DNA from: Natrialba magadii ATCC 43099
Lineage (GTDB): Archaea > Halobacteriota > Halobacteria > Halobacteriales > Natrialbaceae
NCBI RefSeq assembly: GCF_000025625.1
Contig: NC_013922.1
Location: forward strand, 3,286,001 to 3,350,000
Direction: 5' to 3'
DNA length: 64,000 bases
The notes beneath the pieces were generated by a model. That model searched no databases, was not told the DNA's origin, and saw only the letters and a program-made list of their open reading frames with translations. The position numbers and the translations under genes were made by a program. Of this stretch, positions 31,694-37,574 are shown one piece after another (the first letter of the stretch is position 1; every line of letters starts with the position of its first letter).

Positions 31694-33610
31694 ATGAACT
31701 CGATGTCCGGAGACGCTGACACCGGCTACAGCCGTCGCTCGCTCCTCGCTGCCGGCGCGACTGGCCTCTCGATTGCTGCCAGCGGTTGTATCGACCGTGT
31801 CCAGAGCGTCGTCGACCCTGATGCCTCCGAACAGCTCTCACTGTCTATCCTCTCGCTCCCCGCTGCCGACGGTGACAGAGAGACCGCCGAAATCGCACGT
31901 CATCTGGAGTCCAACCTCGAAGCGGTCGGCATCAATGCGACGATCAGCACTCGCTCCGAGTCCGAGTTCCTGGAGGCGATTCTGATCGACCACGACTTCG
32001 ACCTCTACGTGGGCCGCCACCCGGCTGACTTCGACCCGGACTTTCTGTACGAGACGCTGCACTCCACCTACGAGTACGACCGAGGCTGGCAGAACCCGTT
32101 TGGCTTCACCGACCCGCTGTCGATCGATCCGTTGCTCGAGCGCCAGCGCAACGAAACTAGCGCCAATCGCGAGCGGACTGTCACGGCGCTCCTCGAGGCA
32201 ATTGCACAGGTGAAACCGTTCGAACCGATCTGCGTGTCGAACGAGTACCGCGCCGTCCGAACTGATCGGTTCGACGGCTGGGACGAGACCCACCTCGGAA
32301 CCGGACGGGGCTACCTCGGACTCGAACCTGACGCTGCGTCCGACGCCGAACAACTTCGTGCGCTCGTCACGGACCAGCGGCTGACCCAGACCTTCAACCC
32401 GCTCTCCCCGACGACGCGCGAGCAGGGGGTCATCGTCGACCTGCTGTACGACTCGCTTGCCGTTCCAACGTGGTCCGTTCCCGACGAGGCTGAGGCAACG
32501 GACGAGGAGACGCGAGCGGGTGCAGAAGTGATCGACGCGGCAAACGTCTCGATCGAACCCTGGCTCGCGACCGACTGGGAGTGGGACGGTGAGGACCGAA
32601 CCATGACCGTCGATATTCGCGAGGACTGTCTGTTCCACGATCACAGCGAGGACGGCGACGACACTGACGCAGACACCGGCGATAGCAACGGTAACGATAG
32701 CGCCATCCCCCTCACCGCCGAGGACGTCAGGTTCACCTATCGATTCCTCGCAGACACGACGTACGGACGCACCTCGAGTGCTTCCCCCGCACCACGCTAT
32801 AAGGGCCATGCAAGCGCAGTCGACTCGGTCACCGTCGAAGACGACTACCGAGTCACAATTTCGTTCTCGACGGATCGGGCCGTCGCCGAGCGTGCGTTGA
32901 CGGTCCCGATCCTCCCATCCGGCTCTGACTCACCCTGGATCACCCATCTCGAGAACAGCGTCGAGTCCACAGACGACGACTGGTCGCCGACGCAGGGTGA
33001 CTGGAGCATCGTGACGACCGGTCACGCGCCACCGACAGGTAGCGGTCCCTACAAGTATGACTCCCACGACGCGGGAGAGTCCGTCACGCTCACGCGCTTT
33101 GAGGATCACTTTACGCTCCGGGACGACGATCACGACCTGCCAGCGCCTACCGCCGACGAACTTCACTTCGAGGTCGACCCGGGAACGAGTTCGTCGATCG
33201 AACGGGTCGCAAGCGGCGACGCCGATATCACGACATCGGTACTCGATACCTACGCACTCGAGTCGACGGTCGACGACGACGCTGTGTCGTTCGTCGAGTC
33301 GCCGTCGTGGTCGTTCTATCACGTCGGCTTCAACACGCGCAACACGCCGTGTGGCAGCCCCAACTTCCGTCGTGCGGTCTCGCAACTGATCGACAAGCAG
33401 TGGATCGTCGACGAGGTGTTCGCTGCCGAGGACAGTGCACGGCCCGTCGCGACACCGGTTGCCGAAGAGTGGACGCCCGACTCGCTCGCCTGGGACGATG
33501 GCGAGTTGGTGACGACGTTCGTCGGCGAGGACGGGGAACTCGACGTCGACGCCGCGCGAGAACTGTTTGCATCACACTTCGAGTACGACGACGGAGCGCT
33601 GGTCCGGTAG
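31694..33610 (+). CDS. Tat lipoprotein, circularly permuted family-5 solute-binding protein (copy 1)
   Basis: A 638-aa exported lipoprotein: twin-Arg SRRSLLAAGATGLSIAASGC with the lipobox Cys. The order of parts is unusual. Residues about 45-220 resemble the C-terminal part of SBP_bac_5 proteins (LSLSILSLPAADGDRETAEI, then DFDLYVGRHPADFDPDFLYE). The canonical N-terminal part follows: TFNPLSPTTREQGVIVDLLY, WLATDWEWDGEDRTMTVDIR, LTAEDVRFTYRFLAD and GSGPYKYD. It ends at the family's middle: VGFNTRNTPCGSPNFRRAVS and ELDVDAARELFASHF. So the domain is circularly permuted. The start ATG gives the Tat signal directly. It is followed by a PAP2 gene after 11 bases. Confidence 0.88.
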   Translation: MNSMSGDADTGYSRRSLLAAGATGLSIAASGCIDRVQSVVDPDASEQLSLSILSLPAADGDRETAEIARHLESNLEAVGINATISTRSESEFLEAILIDHDFDLYVGRHPADFDPDFLYETLHSTYEYDRGWQNPFGFTDPLSIDPLLERQRNETSANRERTVTALLEAIAQVKPFEPICVSNEYRAVRTDRFDGWDETHLGTGRGYLGLEPDAASDAEQLRALVTDQRLTQTFNPLSPTTREQGVIVDLLYDSLAVPTWSVPDEAEATDEETRAGAEVIDAANVSIEPWLATDWEWDGEDRTMTVDIREDCLFHDHSEDGDDTDADTGDSNGNDSAIPLTAEDVRFTYRFLADTTYGRTSSASPAPRYKGHASAVDSVTVEDDYRVTISFSTDRAVAERALTVPILPSGSDSPWITHLENSVESTDDDWSPTQGDWSIVTTGHAPPTGSGPYKYDSHDAGESVTLTRFEDHFTLRDDDHDLPAPTADELHFEVDPGTSSSIERVASGDADITTSVLDTYALESTVDDDAVSFVESPSWSFYHVGFNTRNTPCGSPNFRRAVSQLIDKQWIVDEVFAAEDSARPVATPVAEEWTPDSLAWDDGELVTTFVGEDGELDVDAARELFASHFEYDDGALVR

Positions 33611-33621
33611 CACGACACGCC

Positions 33622-34503
33622 ATGCTCACACAAGTACTCACACGAGTCGCGCTCGTCGTTGCGCTCGCACTCGTGTTTTCGCTTGCGGTCTTCATCGGCC
33701 GTGACCGACTCGCCTCGCTTCGCACCGAGTGGCGACCGCGGCTCCGCCAGAGCGCTCCCGCGTTTGCGCTCTTGCTCGTGATCCTCGGCCTCAACCGGAT
33801 CATGCGCCAGGACGGATACGACATCTCCCAGGCGTACGGCGTCCACATGACCGAGGTGTTCTACTCGCTCGAGGGTGATTTCGTTCTGCTCTTTCGATCG
33901 ATCGCGACACCGGAAGTGACGACGTTCTTCTCGGTCTCGTACGTCTACGTCTACGCGTTCGTGCTGGTCTTCCCGGTCGTCGCCTACTTCGCGCTCTCGA
34001 ACACCGTCGTCCTCCGCCAGCTGTTGACGGCGTACTCGCTCAACTACGTGATCGGACTCACGTTCTACCTGCTCGTGATCGCCTACGGGCCGCGAAACGT
34101 CATGATCGAGGGAATGGACGCGACGCACCTCTACTACGCGAATCCGGAGTATATCCACCTTACGACAGAGGTCAACCAGAACCGAAACGTCTTCCCATCG
34201 CTGCACACCTCGCTGTCGGCTACGGTCGCCATCTTCGCCTACATGACCCGCGACCAGTATCGAGCGTGGTTCCCCGTCGCAGTCGGCCTCGCAACGAGCG
34301 TCATCATCTCGACGATGTACCTCGGCATCCACTGGGCAATCGACGTGGTCGCCGGCCTCGTCCTCGCCGCCGTCTGTGTCGTCCTCGCGACGCAACTCGT
34401 CGGCCGTTGGTCGCTGTCGGCCCTTCTCAAGCGTGTACAAGCCGCTGGTCAGAGCACGGCTGCGTCTGGGCCAAATCGAGAGCAGGGAGACGATGGCGCG
34501 TAA
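33622..34503 (+). CDS. PAP2/AUR1-type membrane phosphatase or phosphotransferase (copy 1)
   Basis: A 293-aa protein, MLTQVLTRVALVVALALVFS, with about six membrane helices. The PAP2 active-site motifs are present in AUR1/inositol-phosphorylceramide-synthase style: FPSLHTSLSATVAIFAYMT (PSGH-like motif with catalytic His) and STMYLGIHWAIDVVAG (S-x6-H-x3-D). An N-terminal YGPRNVM may correspond to the first motif. The active site should face outside. It is 11 bases behind the permuted binding protein, so co-translated. Substrate unknown; lipid phosphate chemistry is likely from the family. Confidence 0.87.
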   Translation: MLTQVLTRVALVVALALVFSLAVFIGRDRLASLRTEWRPRLRQSAPAFALLLVILGLNRIMRQDGYDISQAYGVHMTEVFYSLEGDFVLLFRSIATPEVTTFFSVSYVYVYAFVLVFPVVAYFALSNTVVLRQLLTAYSLNYVIGLTFYLLVIAYGPRNVMIEGMDATHLYYANPEYIHLTTEVNQNRNVFPSLHTSLSATVAIFAYMTRDQYRAWFPVAVGLATSVIISTMYLGIHWAIDVVAGLVLAAVCVVLATQLVGRWSLSALLKRVQAAGQSTAASGPNREQGDDGA

Positions 34504-34596
34504 GGAGACCCAGAAGTCGACAATTCACCCCCCGAGTGACGATGTTACAGCGCAATACTGTTATATCGCCACGAGCGAACTGTGGCAACGGACCTA

Positions 34597-36522
34597 ATGA
34601 GCGACCCCGCCCCGTCAACGAGCCCCGACAACCACACACGCGACAGCGACGACGCCGCTCGCGGCGGTCCCAGTCGCCGGTCGATGCTCGCCGCGACAGC
34701 CGGTCTCACCGTCTCGATGAGCGGCTGTATCCGCGAAGTACGAAGCATCGTCAACCGCGACGAGGTTGCCCCACTCTCACTGACGATTTCGACGGTTCCC
34801 GCCGACGGCGACCGAGAGAGTATCCAGCTCGCCCGCGCCGTCGGCTCGGCACTCGAGTCCGTTGGCGCCGACATCGCGATCGATATGCTGTCTCAAGAGG
34901 AGTTTCAGCGTGCGATCCTCGTCAATCATGACTTCGATCTCTACGTCGGTCCCCATCCCGGGGACACGACGCCTGACTTCCTTTATGAACTCCTGCACTC
35001 GCGATTCGCGGAGGAAGCCGGCTGGCAGAATCCCTTCGGACTGACGAATCTCGCTATCGACGACCGGCTGGACGAGCAGCGTGTCGCCACAGGCGTAGCC
35101 GCAGACGCAGACGGGAACGGGAACGGGAACGGGAACGGAGACGAAGGCGAAAATGGAGACGAAAACGAGACCAGCGACCGCGAGGACGCGATCACGGCAA
35201 CACTCGAGACGGTTGCGCGCGAGCAGCCGTTCGTCCCGATTTGTCGGCCGACGGAGATCAGACTCGCGCGCTCGGATCGATTCCAGGGCTGGGGAGAGGG
35301 GCATCCAGCGACTCGATTTGGCTATCTTGGTCTCGAGCCACAGTCTGATGGGGCGTCTGCGGAGCTTCGGGCAGTACACACGGACGCACGGCCGTCACAG
35401 AATCTGAATCCGCTGTCGGCGGAGTATCGGGAGCGTGGTCTCTCGACCGAGTTGCTGTACGACTCGCTTGCAGTGGCGCAGTGGCGTGGTGCTGGCGACC
35501 GTGAGTCGGAGACCGACACCGCAACCGATGTCAGTCCCTGGCTCGCGAGTGACTGGGAGTGGAGCGACGACGACACCCTCCTCGTCACCCTCCGGGAGGA
35601 CTGTGAATTCCACGACGGCACGCGACTCACTGCCGAGGACGTCGCCTTTACCTACGAGTTCCTCGCGGACACGACCCGCGGCAGTCGGCGCTTTGCCGCA
35701 CCAGCCCCCCACTACCGCGGCCGCGTCGCCGCCGTCGACGACGTGACCGACCTGAGCGAGACCGAACTCGAGTTCACCGTCGCAGCGAGCCAGCCGGTCG
35801 CCGAGCGCGCACTGGAGGTGCCGATCCTCCCGAAACACATCTGGGACGAGCGCACGGACCAGGCGAGCCTCCGCGGCGTCACGGTTTCGGAGGGGACGAC
35901 CGAAGCGCTCGTCACCGACAACGTGCCCGCAATCGGCAGCGGCCCCTATCAGTTCGACGAGCGGACCGACCGTGATCACCTTACGCTCGCACGCTTTGAC
36001 GCACACTTTACGCGCCGCGACGGCGTCGATCTGCCGGAACCGACAAGCGAGCACCTGCGCATCCAGATCGACCCGCGGAGCACGTCCGCGATCGAACTCG
36101 TCGAAAGCGACAGTGCCGACGTGACGTCTTCGCCACTCGAGTCCTACGTCGTCGATGACGTGTTCGAAGACGACGAGGCAATTTCGGAAACGACGGTACT
36201 CGAGTCACCATCCTGGTCGTTCTACCATATCGGGTTCAACACGCGTCGAGCGCCGCTTTCCAATCCGCGGTTTCGCAGGGTCGTTGCCCGACTCCTCGAC
36301 AAGGAACAGTTGGTCGAGGAGGTGTTCCACGGCCATGCACAGCCGATCGCAACGCCGGTGGTCGAGGAGTGGGTTCCCGACTCGCTCGCCTGGAACGGCA
36401 GCGATCCGGAGACGCCGTTTTTCGGGACTGACGGGGAGCTCGATGTCGCGGCTGCGAGGGATGCGTTCGAAGATGCGGGACTGCGCTACGACGATGACGG
36501 AAGACTCCGGGTGAGACACTGA
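34597..36522 (+). CDS. Tat lipoprotein, circularly permuted family-5 solute-binding protein (copy 2)
   Basis: A 641-aa paralogue of the protein at 31694. Signal: SRRSMLAATAGLTVSMSGC with lipobox Cys. Permuted order again: PLSLTISTVPADGDRESIQL and DFDLYVGPHPGDTTPDFLYE first, then QNLNPLSAEYRERGLSTELL, WLASDWEWSDDDTLLVTLRE, DGTRLTAEDVAFTYEFLADT, ILPKHIWDE, GSGPYQFDE, and finally IGFNTRRAPLSNPRFRRVVA and AARDAFEDAGLRYDDDGRLR, which is normally followed by the part found here at the N-terminus. A GNGNGNGNGDE insert from a DNA repeat lies near residue 175. ATG at 34597 is preferred over GTG at 34582. The stop overlaps the next ATG by one base. Confidence 0.88.
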   Translation: MSDPAPSTSPDNHTRDSDDAARGGPSRRSMLAATAGLTVSMSGCIREVRSIVNRDEVAPLSLTISTVPADGDRESIQLARAVGSALESVGADIAIDMLSQEEFQRAILVNHDFDLYVGPHPGDTTPDFLYELLHSRFAEEAGWQNPFGLTNLAIDDRLDEQRVATGVAADADGNGNGNGNGDEGENGDENETSDREDAITATLETVAREQPFVPICRPTEIRLARSDRFQGWGEGHPATRFGYLGLEPQSDGASAELRAVHTDARPSQNLNPLSAEYRERGLSTELLYDSLAVAQWRGAGDRESETDTATDVSPWLASDWEWSDDDTLLVTLREDCEFHDGTRLTAEDVAFTYEFLADTTRGSRRFAAPAPHYRGRVAAVDDVTDLSETELEFTVAASQPVAERALEVPILPKHIWDERTDQASLRGVTVSEGTTEALVTDNVPAIGSGPYQFDERTDRDHLTLARFDAHFTRRDGVDLPEPTSEHLRIQIDPRSTSAIELVESDSADVTSSPLESYVVDDVFEDDEAISETTVLESPSWSFYHIGFNTRRAPLSNPRFRRVVARLLDKEQLVEEVFHGHAQPIATPVVEEWVPDSLAWNGSDPETPFFGTDGELDVAAARDAFEDAGLRYDDDGRLRVRH

Positions 36523-37574
36523 TGCTGACGCAAGTACTCCTCCAGCTGACCGTCGTCGTCACGCTCCTGGTACTCGTCTCGATCGGTCTCTTCGTCGGTC
36601 GCTACCGGCTTCGGGACACCCGAACCGAGTGGCGAGCCCGTGTTCGAGCGGCGGCTCCCGTCACGGCGTTACTCGCCGCAGTCTTGCTCTTCAACAGCGT
36701 CGCCAGACAGTACGGTCCAGATGTCTCCTGGATGATTCACTGGAATCTCACGTGGCCGATCTACGACGTGGAAGGCGAGTTCATCCTCTGGCTGCAGTCG
36801 TTCGAAGCGCCGGCGATTACGGCGTACTTCTCGTTCATCTACATCTACGGCTACGTCTTTCTGCTGGTCTTCCCGGTCATCGCCTACTTCGCGCTCTCGA
36901 ATACGCGTCCGCTGCGCGAACTCCTGACGGCGTACACGCTGAACTACGTGCTGGGGCTTGGAATCTACGTCTTCATCGTCGCCTACGGGCCGCGAAACAT
37001 GATGCCGGAACTGGTGGACGCGCTGCTGTACGATACGTATCCACAGTACCAGCACCTCACACGACAGGTCAACCGGAACACGAACGTCTTCCCATCGCTG
37101 CACACCTCGCTCGCGGCAACCGTGACGTTCCTCGCCTTCCGGACCCGGGCGATCTATCCGAAGTGGTTCCTCCTCGCGACGGGTCTTGGCGTCTCGGTCG
37201 CGATTTCGACGATGTATCTCGGGATCCACTGGGTGATCGACGTGGTGGCTGGAATCGTCCTCGCCTACATCTGTGTCGCGCTCGCCGGTGTCCTCGTCGG
37301 TCGCTGGTCGCTCACAGACTGGATCGCAACGCTTCAGGGTTCGAGCACGGGTGCCGATGGTCGGTCTCGACCAGACACAGGCGTAGCTTCGAGTTCGGAC
37401 GCGGGTGCGGTCAGCGCGGATTCGAGCCCCAGCGAAGAAGCGTCCGAACCAGCCCGTTCCGAATCGGGATCGGGAACGAGGTCGGATCCTGACGCTGAAC
37501 CGGACTCAGATCCAGACCCAGACACAGAGCCAGATCCAGACTCAGATCCGGACCCATCCGGACCTCGCGCCTGA
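36522..37574 (+). CDS. PAP2/AUR1-type membrane phosphatase or phosphotransferase (copy 2)
   Basis: A 350-aa paralogue of 33622 (MLTQVLLQLTVVVTLLVLVS). It has the same motifs FPSLHTSLAATVTFLAFRT and STMYLGIHWVIDVVAG and the same YGPRNMM. It carries an extra cytoplasmic tail of about 80 residues, Ser/Glu-rich then Asp-Pro repeats (DSDPDPDTEPDPDSDPDP) from a 6-bp DNA repeat. The ATG shares a base with the stop of the binding protein (TGATG), direct translational coupling. The two modules 31694-34503 and 34597-37574 are a tandem duplication that has diverged considerably. Confidence 0.87.
   Translation: MLTQVLLQLTVVVTLLVLVSIGLFVGRYRLRDTRTEWRARVRAAAPVTALLAAVLLFNSVARQYGPDVSWMIHWNLTWPIYDVEGEFILWLQSFEAPAITAYFSFIYIYGYVFLLVFPVIAYFALSNTRPLRELLTAYTLNYVLGLGIYVFIVAYGPRNMMPELVDALLYDTYPQYQHLTRQVNRNTNVFPSLHTSLAATVTFLAFRTRAIYPKWFLLATGLGVSVAISTMYLGIHWVIDVVAGIVLAYICVALAGVLVGRWSLTDWIATLQGSSTGADGRSRPDTGVASSSDAGAVSADSSPSEEASEPARSESGSGTRSDPDAEPDSDPDPDTEPDPDSDPDPSGPRA

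Follow-up and report, generated by a model that had tools for sequence, protein, structure and literature searches.

Why would a gene for a lipoprotein of the substrate-binding protein (SBP) type be paired, twice in a row, with a gene for a membrane enzyme of the PAP2 family (PAP), with no importer behind it? The question is raised by positions 31694-37574 of a 64,000 nucleotide stretch of the Natrialba magadii ATCC 43099 genome (C1:3286001-3350000 in an assembly of 4.44 Mb on four contigs; hereafter the window), where the genes SBP1, PAP1, SBP2 and PAP copy 2 lie head-to-tail, all on the plus strand. In brief, SBP1 (31694..33610) and SBP2 (34597..36522, with an alternative GTG start at 34582) encode circularly permuted SBP_bac_5 lipoproteins of 638 and 641 aa, with Pfam E values of 2.8e-45 and 6.6e-46 and PF00496 scores of 155.5 and 157.5 bits (gathering cut-off 32.4). 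PAP1 (33622..34503) and PAP copy 2 (36522..37574) encode AUR1-type PAP2_3 enzymes of 293 and 350 aa, with Pfam E values of 4.1e-17 and 3.7e-18 and PAP2_3/PAP2 scores of 63 and 66.5 bits (cut-off 27). SBP1 and PAP1 are separated by 11 bases (33611-33621), and the final A of the SBP2 stop codon TGA (36520-36522) is also the first base of the PAP copy 2 ATG, giving TGATG and a gap of -1. An earlier note, made from the sequence of the window, had described two such pairs followed by neither permease nor ATPase; coordinates and order agree with that description, and the open reading frames of the window include no Dpp permease or ATPase genes after the tandem unit.

We suggest, at a confidence that stops a little below even, that the two proteins form a two-component enzyme of the outer membrane surface, in which the lipoprotein serves an AUR1-type PAP2 enzyme in phosphotransfer at the outer leaflet. 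The pair is probably not an importer. The unit itself is real and conserved, and it is apparently undescribed. Public records name its members 'ABC transporter substrate-binding protein' and 'phosphatase PAP2 family protein' or 'inositol phosphorylceramide synthase'. Our search of one open-access library found no paper joining PAP2 with haloarchaea and a substrate-binding protein or lipoprotein, nor any description of the system, in line with the earlier note's view of it as a candidate undescribed system. The pair is not mentioned in the accessible parts of the N. magadii genome paper (PMC3403918).

The pairing is spread over Halobacteria and is thus not unique to this strain. A search for related loci gave 11, all with the complete SBP-PAP-SBP-PAP tandem. 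Two of them are the plasmid and the chromosome of one strain, Natronorubrum bangense (L019 and L021, respectively); the tblastn rows of the two are the same, as is also seen in genome G101, and this may be real or an assembly doubling. A PAP profile matched 125/125 genomes of the family at 1e-15, and 190/292 Halobacteria genomes, representing 57/77 genera, at 1e-30; at 1e-12 it matched 71/294 genomes of the phylum, the non-haloarchaeal matches being weak. A duplication specific to the strain is ruled out by the related loci and by these family- and class-wide matches. At the 40 loci L027-L066, drawn from the top-scoring matches, an SBP gene lies directly upstream on the same strand in every case. 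Over 130 distinct PAP rows, the window's own two pairs not counted, 95 are linked to an SBP and 35 are not; the resulting figure of 95/118 haloarchaeal rows with a permuted SBP directly upstream is not an unbiased rate, since L103-L141 are mostly lower-scoring. The spacing between SBP stop and PAP start, counted for 94 pairs (one of the 95 lacks a usable start), is an overlap in 57, by one base in 40 and by four in 14, and is 20 bases or less in 79. Being conserved over Halobacteria, the pairing is far beyond chance.

The two genes also share a history. For the 70 pairs with a full-length SBP (25/95 were left out of the pair tests for want of one), the SBP and PAP distance matrices correlate with r = 0.90, and of the 2048 ways to pair SBPs with PAPs over 12 tandem loci, the true one comes out best. 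Both results suggest that the units have duplicated and travelled whole. We made a quick PAP tree after dropping L021 and L102, which duplicate L019, together with seven further rows that each had an identical counterpart. The 35 unlinked PAPs fall in it as 12 rows of a distant outgroup, 22 rows of one clade nested among the linked rows (SH-aLRT 98), and one row at a contig edge (L092). The simplest reading of this tree would be a single origin of the linkage in haloarchaea and a single loss. In the midpoint-rooted SBP tree, copy 2 is a clade (20 rows, 0.97) and copy 1 is not (35 rows, 0.7). SBP1 and SBP2 are about 49% identical, and PAP1 and PAP copy 2 about 52%. We take the two tandem copies to be ancient duplicates of the complete unit that probably bind different ligands.

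Among L027-L066, none of the 40 loci has a DppB or DppC match on the strand of the unit; such matches lie near L050 and L053 alone, in a facing Dpp operon on the other strand that has its own SBP. At L060 a single ATPase-like match lies upstream of the unit and on its strand. A DppB homologue turned up in 52 of the 56 pair-bearing genomes searched; the exceptions are G191, G237, G335 and G176. These four also lack PF19300, for which 11/14 controls, including Haloferax volcanii, were positive, and their PF00496 proteins are five SBPs, every one adjoining a PAP gene. The Opp/Dpp importer is therefore absent from four pair-bearing genomes by the DppB and PF19300 searches, other importer families not having been searched, and since their sole SBP_bac_5 proteins are PAP-linked, Opp/Dpp import cannot be the general function of the unit. 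That the unit is not an Opp/Dpp importer is shown in these four genomes and likely elsewhere. The obligate permease partner that would have spoken against the earlier note was found neither at the sampled loci nor in the genome-wide DppB searches, and the orphan-importer reading is refuted as a general function.

The lipoprotein is permuted, as the earlier note had said. SBP1 carries a Tat-type RR at residues 14-15 and a lipobox Cys at 32. A profile of the first approximately 165 residues after the signal, built from 14 sequences (A4), matches canonical family-5 binding proteins over positions ~340-515, at E 2e-8 in the best case; in SBP1 this N-terminal piece (31829..32332, + strand) corresponds to the canonical C-terminal region, DppA 356-487, when the profile is compared with PDB sequences. 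Residues 211-638 of the SBP1 structure model align with canonical residues 1 to ~365 (AppA 1xoc, Z 21.4, 328 residues). SBP1 and SBP2 thus do not have the canonical domain order of SBP_bac_5, the C-terminal region coming first, and the model comparison shows that the general SBP fold is retained. The same swap is seen in the DNA of G237 and G176, where PF00496 part 287-364 comes before part 1-286. It should be noted that the N. magadii genome has both layouts, permuted (L026, L143) and canonical (L144-L147), all alongside Dpp-type genes, and that the permuted SBP_bac_5 proteins of L026, L143, L050 and L053 lie within DppBCDF operons. Permutation is therefore not confined to the SBP-PAP unit and is ruled out as its special mark; it is a wider trait of haloarchaeal binding proteins.

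RR is present in 70/70 full-length PAP-linked SBPs and a lipobox-like motif in 68/70. Eight residues (L97, L118, W132, Q133, L148, P365, Y542 and D567) each recur in 67 or more of the 71 PAP-linked rows and are absent from four permease-linked permuted SBPs, which makes them candidate ligand or interface residues. The position of DppA Asp408, which we take to be the residue that binds the peptide amine, is Gly in 37, Ala in 14, Asp in 4 and Glu in 3 of the 70 PAP-linked SBPs, with others in the rest, as placed by MAFFT and profile alignment alone; this loss is a suggestive hint, no stronger.

The enzyme resembles AUR1 in motifs and fold, which bears out the label given in the earlier note. The catalytic triad (H195, H237 and D241 in PAP1) is invariant in 95/95 linked PAPs, as are P157-R158, PSLH and T231. 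Position 230 varies between Ser (75 rows) and Ala (20 rows), and the motif Tyr is present in 93/95. In the alignment the linked PAPs match the AUR1 motifs FPSLH and STMYLxxHxxxD. Lipid phosphatases of the PgpB/YbjG type carry the signatures PSGH and SRx5Hx3D; PSGH is found in both E. coli PgpB and B. subtilis YodM, which also carry Arg where PAP1 has T231, whereas all 95 linked PAPs have Leu for the Gly and Thr for the Arg. The best fold match of the PAP1 model (predicted local distance difference test, pLDDT, 76.5; predicted template modelling score 0.76) is inositol phosphorylceramide synthase 9vj4 (Z 14.7, 210 residues, 3.2 A), followed by Aur1-Kei1 9ivc (Z 13.4), LpxE (12.5), SMSr (12.1), G6PC1 (10.4), YodM (10.3) and PgpB (10.1). 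The PAP1 loops 25-43, 124-134, 209-216 and 258-266 are net basic. A net acidic charge is found in loop 62-96 and in loop 155-190, which runs up to the first of the catalytic motifs. Loops with catalytic motifs are net acidic or uncharged and those of the opposite side net basic. Under the positive-inside rule of membrane protein topology, these loop charges place the predicted active site outside the cell.

Based on these observations, we picture the unit as follows. The permuted SBP would be exported folded by the twin-arginine translocation (Tat) system and lipid-anchored outside, both proteins presumably being made from one message. It may capture a polar ligand, which could be an acceptor, a head group to be donated or one belonging to a lipid nearby, and present it, possibly by physical contact, to the extracellular active site of the PAP. 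The enzyme would then move a phospho-group via a phospho-histidine step, AUR1-like transfer being more likely than plain hydrolysis, and the pair would thereby build or remodel the outer face of the membrane. Capture of a ligand for an outer-leaflet reaction, and not for import, had been proposed in the earlier note. What holds up is a conserved non-importer pair with both proteins predicted outside, while substrate, ligand and contact stay putative. Judged by the AUR1-type motifs and fold, the first of the two reactions named in that note, headgroup transfer, is a better fit than the second, recycling of polyprenyl phosphate by a phosphatase like PgpB. With more reserve, we speculate that an SBP has here entered a lasting partnership with an AUR1-type lipid phosphotransferase, the two together making up an ATP-free, ligand-gated builder of outer-leaflet head groups or phospho-linked surface molecules that diversified by duplication of the unit, and thus a new class of binding-protein partner.

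Several points weigh against a two-component transferase. Ranking by sequence alone reverses the structural order, with YodM at E 7e-6, PgpB at 1.5e-4 and AUR1, a weak similarity, below both at about 3e-3 (0.0027-0.0034), and no AUR1 model is among the NCBIfam matches of the window proteins. The PAP2 fold alone does not tell transferases from phosphatases, and model confidence is moderate (mean pLDDT 74.1 and 76.5, the latter for PAP1). The 22-row clade has no adjacent SBP, so the enzyme can act without one. At L047 and L057 the order is SBP-PAP-SBP, the second SBP having no PAP of its own; two binding proteins may there serve one enzyme. None of the inspected pairs has SBP and PAP fused into one reading frame. 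DppB-type permeases are carried by 52/56 pair-bearing genomes, so that hand-over to a distant importer may occur in most species. The sulfotransferase, GT-C and HYP neighbours treated below occur at a minority of loci. Ligand capture, lipid substrate and SBP-PAP contact are all putative.

The SBP might alternatively be a regulatory or chaperone subunit that would adjust or stabilise the PAP2 enzyme in response to a ligand or lipid, in the manner of LpqW or Kei1. We regard this as unlikely, yet as an explanation to be taken seriously. Obligate pairing without an importer fits it, Aur1 with its partner Kei1 is one of the two best structural matches, and profile A4, built on the N-terminal part, picks up LpqW (2grv) as one of its matches, weakly (64 residues, E 0.009). 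LpqW is an SBP-type lipoprotein that acts in envelope lipoglycan synthesis of mycobacteria and corynebacteria (PMC3229680, PMC12802301, PMC8972800), and a review has LpqW channel AcPIM4 to lipomannan and PimE direct it to PIM6. However, the SBP fold is kept, and with residues such as W132, Q133, Y542 and D567 conserved in PAP-linked SBPs and missing from four permease-linked permuted ones, a retained specific ligand fits at least equally.

Recycling of polyprenyl phosphate, in which the PAP2 enzyme would dephosphorylate dolichyl or polyprenyl diphosphate from surface glycosylation and the SBP would capture a glycan or sugar product, appears improbable to us. The structural neighbours of PAP1 include LpxE and the C55-PP phosphatase PgpB, and PMT-like GT-C and sulfotransferase genes adjoin some units, but the phosphatase signatures are replaced in all linked PAPs, and 102/292 Halobacteria genomes have no PAP match at 1e-30, which is odd for a housekeeping step. 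More doubtful still is scavenging, in which an outside compound would be stripped of phosphate by the PAP2 enzyme and the resulting product handed on by the SBP to a Dpp-type importer encoded elsewhere: the permuted SBPs of complete DppBCDF operons in the same genome and the frequency of DppB homologues speak for it, but it is refuted in the four DppB-less genomes, unless another importer family serves there, the Dpp genes near L050 and L053 belong to an operon with its own SBP, and the Asp408 position is Gly or Ala in 51/70 PAP-linked SBPs.

The surroundings of the unit were surveyed upstream of 46 loci (L027-L066, L097-L100, L139 and L140). A membrane protein, here called HYP, is encoded upstream on the strand of the SBP in 9/46 (L027, L031, L039, L041, L042, L045, L097, L099 and L139), and an arylsulfotransferase gene, a PMT-like GT-C gene or both are nearby, likewise in 9/46 (L038, L040, L042, L097, L098, L099, L100, L139 and L140). 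None of the three was found at the 20 loci L047-L066. By family, the sulfotransferase and GT-C neighbours are extracytoplasmic modification proteins, and they fit a role in the envelope. HYP (A3) has conserved Trp, Arg and His positions and no accepted Pfam family. A likeness to LssY_C is not supported by Pfam, where DUF7359 appears in 1/8 at E 0.0097, below the cut-off. HYP also adjoins unlinked PAPs at L089 and L118, and the N. magadii genome has three matched HYP pieces, none adjoining the unit. A neighbour search around the unlinked PAPs gave just the local synteny of one genus and out-of-frame shadows. One member of the SBP-less clade, a Halostagnicola plasmid PAP (L101, 5800-6651), has a linear amide hydrolase gene on one flank and a pst phosphate operon on the other.

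In N. magadii itself, the genes flanking the tandem are ordinary; those on one side include genes for a cysteine synthase-like protein, a transporter of the DMT type and a homologue of RNase P component 4. PAP copy 2 has an acidic, low-complexity C-terminal tail (37400-37571), repetitive in Asp, Pro, Glu and Ser, that is missing from copy 1, and SBP2 has an Asn-Gly repeat insert near 35110-35160. A third, unlinked SBP-PAP copy is found at C1:6750-9626. Divergent from it, near the start of contig C1, is a gene whose translation is FtsZ/CetZ-like (L025, 5203-6543).

SBP_bac_5 proteins are routinely annotated as parts of importers, and the PAP as a phosphatase or inositol phosphorylceramide synthase. 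A class-wide pair that persists without a DppB-type permease implies that many such annotations in haloarchaea are functionally wrong. The unit points to undescribed outer-leaflet chemistry and offers a testable system for ATP-free modification of lipids or glycans outside the archaeal cell.

Four known systems invite comparison. PgpB and YodM share the PAP2 fold and the catalytic His/His/Asp with the haloarchaeal PAP, which differs in having PSLH where they have PSGH, and Thr in place of the SRx5H Arg; we know of no binding-protein partner for either. DppA, OppA and NikA share family PF00496 and the fold with the PAP-linked SBP, which differs in being permuted, in having a PAP2 partner and in persisting where no DppB-type permease exists. 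AUR1, which acts with Kei1 and whose active site faces the lumen, is alike in its PAP2-type fold, in FPSLH and STMYLxxHxxxDxxAG and in the His/His/Asp site; it differs in the weakness of the sequence similarity and in its partner, which in the haloarchaea is a binding-protein lipoprotein. Archaea are, to our knowledge, not known to make ceramide. LpqW is likewise a lipoprotein matching an SBP_bac_5-type profile with a role in envelope glycolipids, and the PAP-linked SBPs share with it the trait of being SBP_bac_5 lipoproteins that have no ABC partner. The link of LpqW is to polyprenyl-phosphate-mannose transferases such as PimE, whereas that of the haloarchaeal SBP is to a PAP2 enzyme; by analogy, LpqW is the nearest precedent for the unit.

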